Source: Herbidospora yilanensis
GTDB lineage: Bacteria > Actinomycetota > Actinomycetes > Streptosporangiales > Streptosporangiaceae
DNA length: 64,000 bases
Direction of reading: 5' to 3'
Assembly (NCBI RefSeq): GCF_001570565.1
Contig: NZ_BBXE01000013.1
Location: forward strand, 576,984-640,983
The notes under the pieces were generated by a model, which was given only the letters and a program-made list of their open reading frames with translations, was not told the origin of the DNA and made no database searches. Shown here one piece after another: positions 38,935-45,327 of the stretch (position 1 is its first letter; each line of letters starts with the position of its first letter). The position numbers were made by a program, and so were the translations under genes.

Positions 38935-39133
38935 ATTCGGCCCGCACATAAGGGAAAGTAACTTTCAAACGCACGCGAAGATGCACGTGCAGCGCAAAAT
39001 GCCCACCTTGGCTAATTCGGTGCATTGCGCGACCGATCGTTGATCGGGCAAAATTCTTTTCGGTTTCGGCGCGCTTCTCAAGGTGCCGGTGGGGAGCCTG
39101 ACAATCCCTATGGCGGAAAGGAGGCCCGGCCCC
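38935..39133. promoter_or_regulatory. Intergenic region with two palindromes
   Basis: 199 bases of reduced GC. It contains GAAAGT-A-ACTTTC (38954-38966) and CCGATC-GTT-GATCGG (39033-39047). The latter could be a terminator for the MarR gene and the former an operator. The strong AAGGAGG of the next gene ends the region. Confidence 0.45.
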
Positions 39134-40303
39134 GTGCGCGGCTGGACGCCCCTAAATGATGATCGAACACCGGTGAGCCCCGCAGGACGGGTCCAACCCG
39201 GGCCCTTCCAGGACGACTTCGGCAACCCATTACACGGCCTTTACGCCGGACAGCGAGCGGAAAGCGAGTTCGGCTCCTGGACCCGGATACTCGCCGTCTG
39301 GCACGGATACCGGATCTGGGATTTCACCGGACCCGCCATGAATGGATTCAGAAGTTCTCTAGTGAGCCCGTGGAACGAGATCCTTTCACAGGGGTTACTA
39401 AGAGATCTCGCCGATCCGTCGCCTTACGACGGAGCCGCGTGGAGTGAACGCTGGATCGCCGGCGCCCTGCTCTCCGGGCGCAAGCCGTTCGGCCGGTTCA
39501 CCCTCCCCCTCGACGAGGCGCAGGCCTGGTGCATCCGCGCCCGGCGGGTGGGGCTGGAGTATCACCGCGAACGCGTCGACGGGAACGCCCTGCACATCAC
39601 CGCGGGCCGTGAGGAGACGTACGGAGAGCTGTTCGAGCTCGACGCGCTCGTCGCCTACTACCGCGACGTGCTGCCCCCCGAGGCGGCCGAGACGGCCGCG
39701 TGGGGCCTGCTCTCCCACCGCAAGGAATCCCCCGCCAACCACACCTTCGCCGGCATGGACGCCTTCACCGAACTGCCCAGGGCCGTGCGCGGCCTCACCC
39801 TCGGCTATCCCCCGCTGGCCACGGCCCGCCGCATCCTCCTGGAGAGCGGCGGCGAGAACGAGATCGAGTTCCCCGACGTGCCGCTCGACCCGGGACGGCC
39901 GGAACCGGCCCCGCTCGGCGACGTGCCCGTCTGTGACCACGACCATCCGGTGCCCCGCTTCGAGAACCACGACGACCTGGTCAAGGCGTGTGAGCCGCTC
40001 ACCGACCTGGTGTCCTACTACTGGCAGCTCGACCGCGAGTTGTCGATGTTCGCGCCGCGCATCTCCGGCGTCTACCTGGCCGACTACCCCGAAGCCCTGA
40101 TCGCCGCGTTCGAGGCGCACGCGCGTGCCGCCTCCACCGACCGTTATCCGCGCGCCGAGGCCGTCTTCGCGCACATGTGCTGCGTGCTGCGGCATCTGGG
40201 GCGCGAGCCCGACGAGCTGCTGCGCGGGCTCAGACCGCCATCACTGCGAGCGCCCGGTCGAGGGCCGCTCGACCGCCGTCCGGGTCGTCGCTCCGGATCC
40301 TGA
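39134..40303 (+). CDS. Unrecognised 389-residue protein
   Basis: I do not recognise this family. GTG 39134 has AAGGAGG at nine bases, so longer upstream starts are unlikely. The product is soluble, acidic and rich in aromatic residues (FGSWTRILAVWHGYRIWDF, WSERWIAGALL, LVAYYRDVLPPEAAETAAWG, LTDLVSYYWQLDREL), with a short CDHDHPVPRFENHDD segment that could bind metal, and no signal peptide or membrane segment. Its 3' end overlaps the convergent XRE-TPR gene by 74 bases; the last about 25 codons (Arg/Pro-rich) may be only a shadow of that gene. It opens the accessory island. Confidence 0.65.
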   Translation: MRGWTPLNDDRTPVSPAGRVQPGPFQDDFGNPLHGLYAGQRAESEFGSWTRILAVWHGYRIWDFTGPAMNGFRSSLVSPWNEILSQGLLRDLADPSPYDGAAWSERWIAGALLSGRKPFGRFTLPLDEAQAWCIRARRVGLEYHRERVDGNALHITAGREETYGELFELDALVAYYRDVLPPEAAETAAWGLLSHRKESPANHTFAGMDAFTELPRAVRGLTLGYPPLATARRILLESGGENEIEFPDVPLDPGRPEPAPLGDVPVCDHDHPVPRFENHDDLVKACEPLTDLVSYYWQLDRELSMFAPRISGVYLADYPEALIAAFEAHARAASTDRYPRAEAVFAHMCCVLRHLGREPDELLRGLRPPSLRAPGRGPLDRRPGRRSGS

Positions 40304-41594
40304 GGTCGGCGACCCGCATCCACATCGCCGAGGCCCGCTCGCGGGAGGTCATCGTCTCCCAGCGCTCGGCGGCGGCCACGAGGGCCTGTTCGGCCTCCCA
40401 GGTCTCGCCGAGCCGCAGGTGCGCCTCGGCGATGACCTCCGAGGCGTGGACGTGCAGCAGCGCGGCGGTCTCCCCGACGGCCTTGACGACCTCGTTGGCG
40501 CGGTCGATCGCCTGGTGCGGATCGCCCCTGACGAGGTCGGCACGGGCCAGCGCGAGCGCGCAGAACCCCCGGTCGACGATCCCGGCCGCCGCGTCGGCCA
40601 GCTCGCTCTGGGCCCGCGTGAGGACCGGGAAGAGCTCCTCCGCCGTCGCCGGGTCGGCCCTGATGAGTTCCCCGGCCATGGTCGCCCGCAGGCGGGCCAG
40701 GCCGAGCGGATCGTGGTAGCCGGCGCCGTACAGAGATAGGGCCTGCTCGAAAAGGCCCCGTGCGGTCGGCGCTAATCCCGACCTCGCCGCCGCGATTCCG
40801 TTCTGCCAGGCGACCGAAATACGTCCGCGGGGCTCGCCGAGCTCTATCGCGGCACTCGTCAGCTCGCTCAGCAGCAGATGCAATCGCAGATGCGAACCAT
40901 GTCCGGCCTCTTCCGGATGAGAGTGCAGGTCGACCTGCTCTCCGTACGTGGCTATGAGGGCGCATCCGAGCTCGATCACGCTGGAGGTCCAGCCGGCCGC
41001 GCCGATCTCGCGGTCGAGCGCGCTCTCGCCCACGGCCACGCTGGCCGAAATGTCACCCGCTTCGAGGTGACAGCGGCACAACACGGTCGCCAGCCGGACG
41101 CGGTAGTCGACGAACTGCGTCCAGTGCCCGCTCGACCGGGCCAGCGTCTCGGAGGACTCGTCGAGGTGGGAGTCGAGCAGCCGCGTCACGCGGGTGATCA
41201 CCTGGGGCAGGTCGCCCTCGCGTTCGGCCGCCTGGGCCTGGCCGAGTTCGGCCTGCCGCCAGAGGTCGGGGACCATGCCCAGCGACGGCTGCCGGAGCAG
41301 CGCCGCGTAGCGGTCTCTCGCCTCGGGGAAGCGGCCTTCGGCCAGCGCGCCGCCCGCCTTGGCCGCCTCGGCCCGCAGGCCCGCGATCGTGTGCGGGTCA
41401 AGTCCGTCGGTCAACCACAGAGGGGAACATTGGAGGCCTCGCGCGATGATCCTGATCATGGCCGCGGTCGGTTCGAGGTCTCCGCTTTCAATCCGTTCGA
41501 TCGAGTCGGCATCCAGTTCGGACGTCACTTGGAATGGCAACAACCCTCTCTGCAGGCGAGCGGCTCGAACGCGTTGAGCGATCTTCTCGGGCAC
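40230..41594 (-). CDS. XRE-family regulator with TPR domain (NsdA-like)
   Basis: A 454-residue protein with an N-terminal XRE helix-turn-helix (about 6-62: RVRAARLQRGLLPFQVTSEL, IERIESGDLEPTAAMIRIIA) and a long alpha-helical TPR-like region (about 75-450: GRFPEARDRYAALLRQPSL ... PTARGLFEQALSLYGAGYH ... LGETWEAEQALVAAAERWET). The layout matches actinobacterial NsdA-type regulators and, more generally, RRNPP proteins whose TPR repeats can bind peptides. GTG 41594 with AGGAG four bases upstream. It is divergent from the large transposase-derived gene and may control the island. Confidence 0.85.
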   Translation of the reverse strand: MPEKIAQRVRAARLQRGLLPFQVTSELDADSIERIESGDLEPTAAMIRIIARGLQCSPLWLTDGLDPHTIAGLRAEAAKAGGALAEGRFPEARDRYAALLRQPSLGMVPDLWRQAELGQAQAAEREGDLPQVITRVTRLLDSHLDESSETLARSSGHWTQFVDYRVRLATVLCRCHLEAGDISASVAVGESALDREIGAAGWTSSVIELGCALIATYGEQVDLHSHPEEAGHGSHLRLHLLLSELTSAAIELGEPRGRISVAWQNGIAAARSGLAPTARGLFEQALSLYGAGYHDPLGLARLRATMAGELIRADPATAEELFPVLTRAQSELADAAAGIVDRGFCALALARADLVRGDPHQAIDRANEVVKAVGETAALLHVHASEVIAEAHLRLGETWEAEQALVAAAERWETMTSRERASAMWMRVADLRIRSDDPDGGRAALDRALAVMAV

Positions 41595-41822: not shown

Positions 41823-41845
41823 TTGTGTCAGGTTTCCTGACACAA
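41823..41845. promoter_or_regulatory. Long perfect inverted repeat between the XRE-TPR and transposase-derived genes
   Basis: TTGTGTCAGG (41823-41832), TTT, then its exact reverse complement CCTGACACAA (41836-41845). The 10-3-10 dyad is in the divergent spacer (41595-41948), about 100 bases before the transposase-derived gene. The motif TTGTGTCAG recurs at 49005 before the DUF98 gene. Downstream are two direct copies of TTGACAA (41917, 41928). Confidence 0.65.
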
Positions 41846-41948
41846 TTAATGAGACGAATGTTTGCATAGCTGCCGAATTCGTGTTATTTGGTCGCACGTG
41901 GATCATTACACGGTCATTGACAAAGATTTGACAAGCCGTCCGCATCGT

Positions 41949-44900
41949 ATGCGGGATGTGGACGGCCGGGCGTTCCTGGCGTCCCTGCGCACCACCGCCG
42001 TGACCCGCGTCGAGGCGGGCGAACGGGTCGCGCAGGTGAGCCGGAACATGGGCGTGTCCCGGTCGTCGGTCTACGAATGGCTCCGCCAGGCCCGCTCCGG
42101 GCCGGAGAAACTGCAGGCCAGCCCGTTGCAGGGGCGGCCGTCGGCGCTTTCGCCCGACGGGCTGCACGATCTGGCCATCGCGCTGCTGGCCGGCCCCGAG
42201 TCAGCGGGCTTGACAGGACGGTTGTGGACGCGGGAACTCGTAAACGAGCTCGTCTCCCGTGACCACGGCGTCTCGCTGACGCTCACCAGCATCGGCCGTC
42301 TGCTGCGTTCACTCGGTTTATGGCCCCGGCACTCGCTCGTCACGTGGCCGGACGGATCCGCGCGATTGTGGAAACAGCGTTACGCGTACATAAAAGAGAA
42401 AGCACGGGAACAGGACGCGCTTCTGATGCGCGGGGGACTGGTGGACATCGGCGCGCTTCTCCCCCGTTCGTCCTTCCCGGCCGCGCCGTTCGGCTTCCAC
42501 CTGGCTTATGCGCTGATCCCCGGCGGGCCGCTGCTGTTCCGCGCCTATTCGGGGCCCGCGAACGCGGCCACGTTCCTCGACTTCGCGGCCGGGCTGGTGA
42601 CCGAGACCGGACGTCCCACCTGCCTGATCACCGCCCACCATCCGGTCTTCGACCTCGACGAGTGCGCGCGCGGCCTGGCCGGGCTGCCGCTGACCGTCTG
42701 GGTGCGCAGCGGCGGCGACGCCCGCTCGGTGCGGCCGGCGCCCGCGCCCGCCACGGCCTCGGCCCCCGATCTGCGGCCGGCCGTGCTCGGCGGGCCGTCC
42801 ACCGGCCTGTGGACGATGGACCTGCTGGCCGAGCGGCTGGGCACGCTTTTCGGTCATCCGGTCAGTACCGGCGAGGCCGAGATCCTGCTCTCCGCGCAGA
42901 ACCTGTGGCCCGAGGGCCCGCTGCCGCCCGTGCTGCCGCCGGGGTCGCCCGCCGTCGGCCGGTGGTGCCACGACGTGCTGCCGCTGTTCCAGGCCGACGC
43001 GGGGGCCGGCGCGGCCGTGCGGTTCGTCCAGGAGGTCCCGCTGCCGGGCGGGCGCACGCTCCTGCTGGCCGTCTCCCCCGATCAGGAACGCCGCTTCGCC
43101 TGGTACGAGGAGGCCCGCTACCAGGGCCGCATGCGCGCCGCGACGCTGGCCGACTTCACCCGGCGGCTCCGCCAGGACGTCGCCGGGCCGCTGTGCCTGG
43201 TGGTCACCGACTGCTCCGGCTGGCGTTCCCGGGATCTCGACGCCACCGCCACGACGGTCGGCGACGCCTTCTTCTGCACGTGGGCGGACGGCTGCGGCGA
43301 ACGCGTCTGGCGCGTCCCCGACCACGACCCGGTCCAGGCGCTGTGCCGCCGCCACTACCACCAGCGACGCGGGCCCGCCCCCGCCGGAACCGCCTCGCTG
43401 GAGATGGAACACCCGCCGCGCGGCCCCATCGGGACGGCCGACCGCCAGGTCCGGATCGCCGCCGCCCGGGAACGCGCCCGGCGGCAGCCCCTGTCGGCGG
43501 GAGGCCGGTTGCGCGAGCTCGTCCTGGCGGGCCCGCCCGCCCTGCTGACCATGCGGGCGCTCACCGCCCTGCTGGCCCGCGCCTACGGCCGCCCCGTGGG
43601 CGCCGACCGTGCCGTCGCCGTGCTGCGCGACGAAGGGCTGTGGCCCGAGGAGTTCCCGTCGGTCGAGCCCGGCCCGTGGGAGCACGAGACGCTGCCGCTC
43701 CACCTCGCGCACGCGGGCGCCGGCGCGGCCGTCCGGTTCGTCGCCGAGGCGCGGCTCGGCGGCGACCTCAGCCTCCTGGTGGCGCTCGACCGCGCCGGGG
43801 AGACCCGGTTCGCCTGGTACCCGCAGGCCCGCTATCGGGGGCGGATGCGCGCGACCACGCTCGTCTCCTTCGCCGAACTGCTGCTCGACGAGACCAACGG
43901 GCCGCTCTGCCTGGTCGCCGCCGACGAGGCCGGCTGGAAGTCCAAGGAACTGGCCGCCACGCTGGCCCGGCGGCCAATCCTGGTCGTCGCGGCCGGGGCG
44001 CCCTACCTGTGCGTCTGGCCGGCCGGGTGCGGCAACCGCGCCGTCATGGGCGACCAGTGCCGCACCCACGCGCGCCGGTCACGGCGGCTGGCCGCCCACG
44101 GGGCACGCTCCGGGCCGCTCCTCGACGCCGTGCGCGCCGCCTCGGCCCGACTCGCCGCGGCCCGCGCGACCGGCGACGCGGCCAGGGAGGCGCTGCGGGA
44201 GGCGCTGACCGACCTGCACGCGGCCGGGGCCGGGGACGCCGCTCTGGTCGCCGCCTGGACCGGGCTGCCGGAGAACGAGATCCCCTTCGTGTCCGAGCCG
44301 ATCGACCGGGAGCTCGTGGAGGCGCTGCGCGCGTGCGTGCGGACCGGGGTGACCAGCCTGACCACCCTCATGCGGGTGAGCGGGCTGCCCGAGGGACGGG
44401 TCAGGGCGCTGCGCCGGGAGGTGCGGCTGCGGGCGCGGGCCCAGGAGGCCGTGTTCCTGGCGCGGATCGCCGCCTCGGCCGCCGCCCTCCGCGATCGGCG
44501 GGACCAGCACGGCGACGCCGTCCGCCGCGCCTGGCGCGAGGGGCACCGCACGGTGACGGCGATGTGCGAGGTGGCGCGGATCAGCCCGTACACGCTGGCC
44601 CGGATCCTGGAGGGGCTCGGCGCCGACCTGCTGCTGCCGCCGCGCGCCCCGGGCCGGGGCGCGCTCGCCGAGGTGGGCCGCGCCGCGATCCTGCTGGGCG
44701 AGGCGCGGACGGCCCGCGACGACGAGGTCCGCGCGGCGCTGGCCGCCGGGGTCAACGTCGTCGGGCTGCTCGCGCGGGCCGGAGGGATGACCCAGGCCCG
44801 GGTCCGGCGGCTGCGGCCCGCCCCGACCCGTGAGACGGCTCTGGCGGCCCTGGCGGCGAGCCGGGCCGAACTGGACCGGCGGACGGCGGGCCTGGCGCGG

Positions 44901-45143
44901 GCCTGCCGTCCGCTGCTGGACCGGGTGGCCGAGCGGCTGGCCGCCGTCGCCGACGCCGCTCACACCGAGGCGCTGGCCACCGTCGCCCGCGACGCGGCCG
45001 TGCGCGCGGCCTGGGCGGGCGGAGTCGGCGACCCGGCCGTGCTGGCCGTCTGCGCGGGCACCGACTCCCGCACGGTCACGGCGTTGGTCGGCGCGGCAGC
45101 GGCAGCGGACGCCCCGGATGCTTGCGCGCGTACCAGGACGTGA
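41949..45143 (+). CDS. Transposase-derived protein: three degenerate IS630-like modules plus HTH array
   Basis: A 1064-residue protein I cannot place in a named family. Residues 14-50 form an HTH (VEAGERVAQVSRNMGVSRSS). Module 1: wHTH (70-126) then a DDE-like stretch (155-245) in which the IS630 catalytic positions appear lost (RGGLVDIG, LITAHHPVFD). Modules 2 (279-470) and 3 (526-710) repeat wHTH plus DDE-like core: FQADAGAGAAVRFV/LAHAGAGAAVRFV, RFAWYEEARYQGRMRA/RFAWYPQARYRGRMRA, GPLCLVVTD/GPLCLVAAD, each ending in a zinc-knuckle-like CxWxxGCG...CRxH. The third catalytic Glu region is missing throughout. At 789-1047 four HTH-like repeats follow. The start is uncertain: ATG 41949 or GTG 41898. 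Confidence 0.7.
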   Translation: MRDVDGRAFLASLRTTAVTRVEAGERVAQVSRNMGVSRSSVYEWLRQARSGPEKLQASPLQGRPSALSPDGLHDLAIALLAGPESAGLTGRLWTRELVNELVSRDHGVSLTLTSIGRLLRSLGLWPRHSLVTWPDGSARLWKQRYAYIKEKAREQDALLMRGGLVDIGALLPRSSFPAAPFGFHLAYALIPGGPLLFRAYSGPANAATFLDFAAGLVTETGRPTCLITAHHPVFDLDECARGLAGLPLTVWVRSGGDARSVRPAPAPATASAPDLRPAVLGGPSTGLWTMDLLAERLGTLFGHPVSTGEAEILLSAQNLWPEGPLPPVLPPGSPAVGRWCHDVLPLFQADAGAGAAVRFVQEVPLPGGRTLLLAVSPDQERRFAWYEEARYQGRMRAATLADFTRRLRQDVAGPLCLVVTDCSGWRSRDLDATATTVGDAFFCTWADGCGERVWRVPDHDPVQALCRRHYHQRRGPAPAGTASLEMEHPPRGPIGTADRQVRIAAARERARRQPLSAGGRLRELVLAGPPALLTMRALTALLARAYGRPVGADRAVAVLRDEGLWPEEFPSVEPGPWEHETLPLHLAHAGAGAAVRFVAEARLGGDLSLLVALDRAGETRFAWYPQARYRGRMRATTLVSFAELLLDETNGPLCLVAADEAGWKSKELAATLARRPILVVAAGAPYLCVWPAGCGNRAVMGDQCRTHARRSRRLAAHGARSGPLLDAVRAASARLAAARATGDAAREALREALTDLHAAGAGDAALVAAWTGLPENEIPFVSEPIDRELVEALRACVRTGVTSLTTLMRVSGLPEGRVRALRREVRLRARAQEAVFLARIAASAAALRDRRDQHGDAVRRAWREGHRTVTAMCEVARISPYTLARILEGLGADLLLPPRAPGRGALAEVGRAAILLGEARTARDDEVRAALAAGVNVVGLLARAGGMTQARVRRLRPAPTRETALAALAASRAELDRRTAGLARACRPLLDRVAERLAAVADAAHTEALATVARDAAVRAAWAGGVGDPAVLAVCAGTDSRTVTALVGAAAAADAPDACARTRT

Positions 45144-45327
45144 GCAGCTTCTCCACCGCGACCAGATGGAAGTTGAGCTGGTCGAACAGCTCGCGTACGT
45201 CGTCGTCGGAGGCCGTCAGGCGGAAGGAGTCGACCAGGGTGGTGATGGAGTCGGGGTCGGCGTAGGGACGACGGCCGGCGCGTTCGGCGCGTTCGTCCTC
45301 GAACGGGCTGAAGATGGAGTGCGTCAC
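45076..45327 (-). CDS. Small acidic/helical protein, 83 residues
   Basis: A short gene with AGGGGG five bases before its GTG start, nine bases after the stop of the FemAB-like gene. It therefore belongs to that operon. The product is soluble: an acidic N-terminus (FSPFEDERAERAGRRPYADP), a predicted amphipathic helix pair (DSITTLVDSF, DDDVRELFDQLNFHLVAVEK) and a basic Pro-rich end (KHPGRPLPLPRRPTP). No family recognised. It overlaps the 3' end of the convergent transposase-derived gene by 68 bases. It might be a partner, an adaptor or a substrate of the two enzymes encoded upstream. Confidence 0.65.
   Translation of the reverse strand: MTHSIFSPFEDERAERAGRRPYADPDSITTLVDSFRLTASDDDVRELFDQLNFHLVAVEKLLTSWYARKHPGRPLPLPRRPTP

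Follow-up and report, generated by a model that had tools for sequence, protein, structure and literature searches.

A gene of Herbidospora yilanensis (assembly GCF_001570565.1) very probably encodes a domesticated, catalytically dead and internally triplicated descendant of an IS630-family transposase. It occupies 41898..45143 on the forward (+) strand of the window, the 64,000-nucleotide stretch of contig NZ_BBXE01000013.1 (positions 576,984 to 640,983) that was analysed. Its product of 1081 amino acids (aa), hereafter the giant protein, starts with an IS630-type helix-turn-helix (HTH; 41976..42143), which is followed by three consecutive units, each made of a winged HTH and an RNase H-like core. 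The winged HTH and the core lie at 42147..42347 and 42363..42713 in unit 1, at 42759..42932 and 42960..43262 in unit 2, and at 43503..43667 and 43671..43997 in unit 3. Units 2 and 3 carry a Cys/Cys/Cys/His knuckle after the core (43275..43355 and 44010..44069), and the protein ends in a helical region (44199..45059) that contains about five HTH-like repeats; all these features are on the + strand. An initial annotation, made from the letters alone, had proposed an N-terminal HTH and three successive units, an order that Pfam HTH matches and unit-against-unit BLAST confirmed. It had also described the whole protein as transposase modules; this holds for the three units but not for residues ~735-1060, which form the HTH-repeat region that it had not described.

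The three units are homologous to one another. With composition correction off, BLAST aligned unit 2 with unit 3 at 45% identity (E 1e-47), in agreement with the close match first noticed from shared peptides, which are indeed present, and aligned unit 1 with unit 2 (E 2e-7) and with unit 3 (E 3e-8). The 18 unit sequences from six species could be aligned together. Unit 3 and the winged HTH of unit 2 are supported by this comparison and by structure models, and the winged HTH of unit 1 by Pfam and by helices in a low-confidence full-length model.

Pfam matches to the giant protein are to HTH families only and are confined to its N-terminal part, namely HTH_28 (E 3.3e-9), HTH_29 and HTH_23 at the first HTH and HTH_33 (E 5.1e-7) in unit 1. 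The NCBIfam IS630 model NF033545 scored 67.2 bits against a cut-off of 100 bits, its best stretch being residues 17-127 of the protein counted from ATG 41949; no TnpB/OrfB family was among the Pfam or NCBIfam matches. A tblastn search of plasmids with the whole protein returned 14 records, 13 annotated as IS630 transposases and one unannotated. The matches fell within residues 13-274, and the best covered residues 16-250 (E 1e-18). Unit 1, in which the initial annotation had seen the more typical IS630 HTH, is thus the nearest to IS630. A Rhodococcus opacus transposase, WP_065493571.1, aligned with unit 1 plus the HTH and, separately, with unit 2 (E 8e-8). The best-scoring annotated IS630 transposase, on an R. 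opacus plasmid (L112; here and below, L numbers denote loci and G numbers genomes), is flanked by genes for a ScbR-type regulator and ScbA/BarX.

Because the HTH might carry all of the IS630 signal, the RNase H parts were compared alone, by hhalign, with 12 aligned IS630 proteins. Units 2 and 3 together were matched at 92% (score 46.3) and unit 1 at 89% (score 43.0). Relatives described below gave 96% (G010/G240), 97% (G207), 98% (G354) and 99.7% (single-copy proteins), against 0.5% (score 18.7) and 0.1% (score 12.9) for the neighbouring proteins p406 and XRE-TPR; when the columns of units 2 and 3 were shuffled, the best of 30 versions scored 20.4. The RNase H-like parts are thus placed with IS630 and not with an unrelated fold. 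Taken together, unit 1 with the N-terminal HTH matches IS630 by BLAST; the profile comparison links units 2 and 3 to it, and for unit 2 BLAST does so too. The N-terminal HTH and winged HTH of the IS630 family are present, as is, by profile, its RNase H-like catalytic domain in all three units, while no unit retains all three acids of the D-D-E/D triad.

The catalytic triad is lost in every unit. IS630 proteins read FxDE, L-DGHPVH and LNPDE at the three catalytic motifs. The corresponding sequences are FVQE and LVVTD-CSGW in unit 2, FVAE and LVAAD-EAGW in unit 3 (IVQE at the first motif in unit 3 of G125, a genome of another genus), and GGLVDI and LITAHHPVF in unit 1. The first Asp had been thought to survive in unit 2 alone; this was wrong, the position being occupied by Gln378 in unit 2 and by Ala in unit 3, and in unit 1 Asp183 lies near it in an unsure register. 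An Asp is present near the second position in units 2 and 3, as had been claimed, but D438 and D676 stand one residue past the catalytic Asp of IS630 in the multiple alignment, as D438 also does in the profile alignment, and may therefore not be its equivalents. The segment with the third acid is missing from all three units in the window protein, in G125 and in five aligned Herbidospora species, and units 2 and 3 are also shorter by roughly 25 residues in the interval from strand 1 to strand 2. The Asp beside the second position and the Glu after the first that units 2 and 3 retain would fit a nuclease or recombinase still active through a non-canonical site, but this reading is very improbable given Gln or Ala at the first position of these units and the absence of the third-acid segment in all three. 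The knuckles of units 2 and 3 (C.W..GC...C..H), noted from the outset together with the loss of the third acidic region, have their four residues (C460, C466, C483 and H486; C705, C711, C721 and H724) kept in all seven sequences that cover them, one of which is G125; they are probable zinc-binding sites.

Structure prediction is consistent with an RNase H fold. AlphaFold, run on unit 2 with an 18-row alignment, gave a best model with a predicted local distance difference test (pLDDT) score of 73.3 and a predicted template modelling (pTM) score of 0.75, and four others with pLDDT 62.8-65.4. After the winged HTH, the best model has the order strand-strand-strand-helix-strand-helix-strand (E-E-E-H-E-H-E), an RNase H-type order. 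In a Foldseek search of the PDB, in which no row reached E 0.001, HIV reverse transcriptase and the C-terminal half of UvrC (best E 1.3e-3) came out on top and retroviral intasomes further down; the highest Z from VIA was 6.6, for a chain of HIV-1 integrase, with a root-mean-square deviation of 2.6 over 91 residues. Mariner/Tc1 structures were not among the 50 VIA rows listed, which is uninformative either way. The RNase H-like core expected for the unit is thus found in the model, and among solved structures integrase cores and UvrC score best against it. For units 1 and 3, structures come solely from a poor full-length model (mean pLDDT 50.8, pTM 0.30), in which ten-residue blocks mostly score 56-84 in units 2 and 3, with dips to ~30-50, and mostly below 53 in unit 1. 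The modelled structure argues moderately by itself for an RNase H core in unit 2, and well in combination with the sequence evidence.

The gene is real, intact and vertically inherited. Its open frame spans 41862-45143 and terminates at 45143. The start had been placed at ATG 41949; we moved it 17 codons upstream to GTG 41898, in the same frame, which is probably the best start, because in-frame stops separate an upstream TTG position from this GTG in L030, L033 and G125, and because the tblastn alignments of the 1081-aa product with L028-L033 and G125 all begin at residue 1. GC content by codon position is 0.78/0.59/0.92. All seven Herbidospora genomes searched contain the gene, five whole and two (G003, G005) cut by contig ends; G125 encodes a giant protein with 47-53% identity. 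A decaying pseudogene or chance frame might be invoked since long frames are common at high GC and an overlapping frame of 837 aa occurs in the same stretch. We find this scarcely credible, as the frame is intact in all five uninterrupted Herbidospora copies and in G125, and the mean ratio of nonsynonymous to synonymous substitution rates (dN/dS) is 0.31 over 10 Herbidospora pairs, counted from ATG 41949. By part, dN/dS is 0.065 for the N-terminal HTH, 0.16 for unit 1, 0.30 for unit 2, 0.28 for unit 3 and 0.49 for the C terminus, which indicates that the giant protein is under purifying selection. The results thus support the ancestry, the three units, the absence of the triad, the conservation and, as described below, the gene order; the support is good for IS630 ancestry, for the triplication and for the loss of catalysis. 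The proposal of a domesticated, dead and triplicated transposase accordingly stands on unit BLAST, hhalign, plasmid tblastn, motif alignment, dN/dS and gene order.

Several other features were noted around the gene. The stretch immediately 5' of GTG 41898 is fully conserved in seven Herbidospora sequences and partially, with one base missing, in G125; it is therefore probably a promoter or leader, and might be the -10 region in front of a leaderless mRNA. On the opposite (-) strand, an 83-aa frame (45076-45327) overlaps the 3' end of the gene, with 83-98% identity across the five further Herbidospora loci long enough to include it, and is absent from the G125 stretch examined. Assembly breaks interrupt the gene in two Herbidospora assemblies (L031, L033, L034), perhaps due to repeats or GC content.

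The last third of the giant protein is likely a helical, DNA-binding HTH-repeat region and not transposase. We built a hidden Markov model (HMM) from 17 HTH repeats of five proteins encoded next to p406, with the giants excluded. On the window protein it scored five stretches, 44199-44270, 44319-44405, 44514-44612, 44727-44810 and 44991-45059 (+ strand), the scores being 8.2, 13.7, 5.3, 21.6 and 1.0 bits. Among 200 shuffled controls the best reached 11.0 bits and four shuffled stretches exceeded 5, so that only two of the ~5 repeats of the window protein stand out alone, with one in L030 (14.9 bits) and none in G125. The other repeats are suggested by their position and by helices of the low-confidence model. 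With one N-terminal HTH, three winged HTHs and ~5 C-terminal HTH-like repeats, partly significant, the giant could be an architectural protein of the nucleoid type, with no defined regulon, that links DNA at many sites; this is rather unlikely, since the low dN/dS of the HTH and the fixed site of the gene beside a divergent regulator suit site-specific action better.

The gene also lacks the features of a mobile element. It has a single match in its own genome, gene order around it is fixed in L028-L033 and G125, and no convincing flanking inverted repeats were seen among the 25 longest of 58 pairs. The giant protein might instead act on mobile elements, as a trans-dominant inhibitor that occupies the ends of resident IS630 copies. 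The recognition HTH being its best-conserved part and the several IS630-like copies of one congener, G006, speak for such a function, which is nevertheless improbable: the similarity to the G006 copies is just 37-38%, in the other six Herbidospora genomes the matches listed (E up to 0.001) are the giant or its pieces only, and the linkage to p406, the tandem units and the HTH repeats would be left unexplained.

That linkage involves two genes upstream. The first (39083..40303, +) encodes p406, an uncharacterised 406-aa protein with no Pfam match above cut-off and no NCBIfam match. The second, divergent gene (40230..41594, -) encodes a regulator with an XRE-type HTH and tetratricopeptide repeats (XRE-TPR), for which the Pfam matches HTH_3 and TPR are below cut-offs. 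The order p406, XRE-TPR, giant is unchanged in L028-L033 and G125. We detected p406 in 24 of 200 genomes of the family (E 1e-6) and in 4 of 394 class-wide (E 1e-8), all four of the same family; in the plasmid collection, tblastn also found it in four records, of which one is from Pseudonocardia and one has the size of a chromosome. One p406 member is annotated near a BTAD regulator.

Inspection of all 24 p406 loci, with genes picked by our own open reading frame script and not from annotation, revealed a gene for an HTH-repeat protein adjoining p406 or one gene off in 17 genomes. The partner is the three-unit giant, with XRE-TPR in between, in the seven Herbidospora genomes and G125. In G010, G240 and G354, a protein with one unit plus HTH repeats is encoded directly beside p406; in G355 the end of the gene adjoins p406, and another contig carries a fragment that includes the unit region and two repeats. 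Five genomes of genus g28 (L098, L099, L100, L107, L137) have at this place a protein with seven knuckles (C..GC..C..H) and HTH repeats, and no transposase unit. The knuckles of L100 match phage HNH-endonuclease families in PHROGs, and Pfam lists no HNH domain. G207 encodes a one-unit protein of 747 aa; the p406 beside it is diverged and matched at E 1.8e-24, where 100 shuffles reached 2.3e-3 at best. In a search of 341 family genomes (E 1e-6, 2 candidates scored per genome), 38 matched the giant query, with three-unit giants in the seven Herbidospora genomes and G125; the other matches were to the HTH and unit 1 region, and among them were IS630 transposases as well as the one-unit proteins from G010, G240 and G207. 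Outside the family, among 394 and 256 sampled class genomes, no listed match to the unit-repeat fusion extended beyond position 252 of the model, where the first repeat has its edge, in a search that scored only 3-4 candidates per genome, so that weak members may escape.

In a tree of 29 rows, the units of the giants, the one-unit forms and the G207 proteins fell on one side of a branch with support 90/89; in a tree of 32 rows, the group without G207 had 82/85. The simplest reading, not a proven one, would be a single capture followed by copying.

Several observations weigh against this picture. The 90/89 branch is below the star of the tool, and long branches meet there; the best tree does not unite the six giant units in one clade, although a constraint that keeps them together was not rejected (approximately unbiased test, p 0.247). 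No HTH-repeat gene was found near p406 in 7 of the 24 genomes (G199, G203, G221, G230, G231, G243, G340) by tblastn, open reading frame picks or the repeat HMM, whose best score there was 10.4 bits, in G243. A second one-unit protein of G207, of 779 aa, has no p406 within its 8-kb stretch, and the repeats of the G207 proteins are weak by the HMM (16.3 and 10.9 bits at best). The HMM is also weak on the giant protein and weaker on its G125 counterpart (best 8.5 bits, below the best shuffle). All VIA structure matches are below the Z 8 mark of the tool, and the poor quality of the full-length model makes the arrangement of the domains unreadable. Lastly, a dyad in front of the gene, described next, was not seen in G125.

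The divergent intergenic region between XRE-TPR and the giant gene contains a 17-bp dyad, TGTCAGGTTTCCTGACA, at 41826..41842. The sequence TGTCAGGNNNCCTGACA has one exact match in the genome, and the core of the dyad is kept in all seven Herbidospora, with one arm mismatch in L030. A unique site with a conserved core suits local control by one of the flanking regulators. No regulon based on the dyad is proposed, as there is a single exact genomic site.

Other affiliations were examined and set aside. PADLOC gave only marginal HTH matches for the giant protein (E 0.0023, 0.0096) and none for the G125 giant, the G010 short form, XRE-TPR or p406, and a defence system was not retained. Neither was a phage origin, as 50,697 phage records contained no match to p406 or the giant; in PHROGs, the giants and the short form match in their HTH/winged-HTH region, XRE-TPR matches as repressors, and one repeat region of G354 matches weakly. 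Sequence matches to solved structures were not taken as homology; the best were E 0.13 for the giant (the unit 3 knuckle to Sp1), 0.033 for p406 (hydrogenase), 0.78 for the units and, for the one-unit set, 0.0028 (to an armadillo protein of artificial design).

Compared with IS630-family transposases such as WP_065493571.1, the giant protein shares an HTH, a winged HTH and an RNase H-like core in the same order, with similarity detectable by BLAST. It differs in that the triad is lost, that all units lack the third-acid segment and that units 2 and 3 are missing ~25 residues behind strand 1, and also by its three units with added knuckles and HTH repeats and by its syntenic single copy. Single-copy truncated IS630-like proteins of other actinobacteria (L062/L063, L037/L041/L043, L068/L069) have in common with it the IS630 HTHs, the RNase H part and the loss of the third acid, whereas they have one unit and HTH repeats were not seen in them. 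Those of L068 and L069 (genus g128), of 237-254 aa, are placed among IS630 rows in the tree and are therefore probably an independent case. Similar proteins encoded at L105 3307-4200 and L106 3978-4934, single-copy, truncated and without the third-acid region, occupy the same place in two g105 species, between genes that resemble accD and dnaJ; this looks like a separate syntenic domestication.

The conversion of DDE transposases into host proteins is well described in vertebrates. CENPB, POGK and POGZ are domesticated pogo (IS630-Tc1-mariner) proteins, some of them fused to extra domains, such as ZNF in POGZ (PMC7386202). The giant protein resembles them in its derivation from this group of transposases and in its additional domains; in contrast, they are eukaryotic and of independent origin, and the portion of that article available to us mentions no tandem triplication. 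In bacteria, the nuclease-dead, TnpB-derived TldR proteins are RNA-guided repressors (PMC13418256). As far as the accessible text of that source goes, they are, like the giant, bacterial, transposon-derived, catalytically dead and tied to non-transposon genes, but have TnpB/RuvC ancestry and an RNA guide. A search of open-licence papers, at the level of titles and abstract openings, listed none on a bacterial host protein derived from IS630. The giant protein is thus an unusual architecture on the known theme of domesticated, dead transposon proteins.

In our model, an ancestor within the Streptosporangiaceae would have captured an IS630-family transposase gene, which would have fused with a gene near p406 whose product had a row of HTH repeats at its C terminus. 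The catalytic site would have been lost, the unit of winged HTH and trimmed RNase H core would have been copied in tandem to three in the line of Herbidospora and G125, and in units 2 and 3 a probable zinc knuckle would have taken the place of the third-acid segment. The giant would most likely bind DNA at several points on behalf of the cell and no longer move it. Its IS630 HTH, which is under strong constraint, may read a specific site, with further contacts from the winged HTHs, the knuckles and the C-terminal repeats, while the dead cores may serve as protein or DNA platforms. Regulation, its most likely use, would be exerted jointly with p406 and, in Herbidospora and G125, XRE-TPR, and would probably include the shared divergent promoter region. 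We infer the single capture, the binding of zinc and DNA, the partnership with p406 and the regulatory role. A function as scaffold or regulator, as initially suggested, is plausible, and the chances of a regulatory role proper seem evenly balanced. The best explanation of the whole, a multivalent DNA-binding protein of the Streptosporangiaceae that incorporates a dead, domesticated IS630 transposase, is in our view somewhat probable. More tentatively, an undescribed module of this family, composed of p406 and a modular HTH-repeat protein, might have taken in a dead IS630 unit and expanded it in tandem in Herbidospora and one related genus; the giant would then be a bacterial counterpart of CENP-B or POGZ, bridging or marking defined DNA sites, with p406 as effector.

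The proteins found here would form a series of living intermediates, from knuckles plus HTH repeats, through one unit, to three units. If the model is true, three dead tandem units with added knuckles and HTH repeats, the intermediates and a recurrent partner would make the domestication of transposases in bacteria directly testable, and the giant protein would offer a first way into the uncharacterised family of p406.

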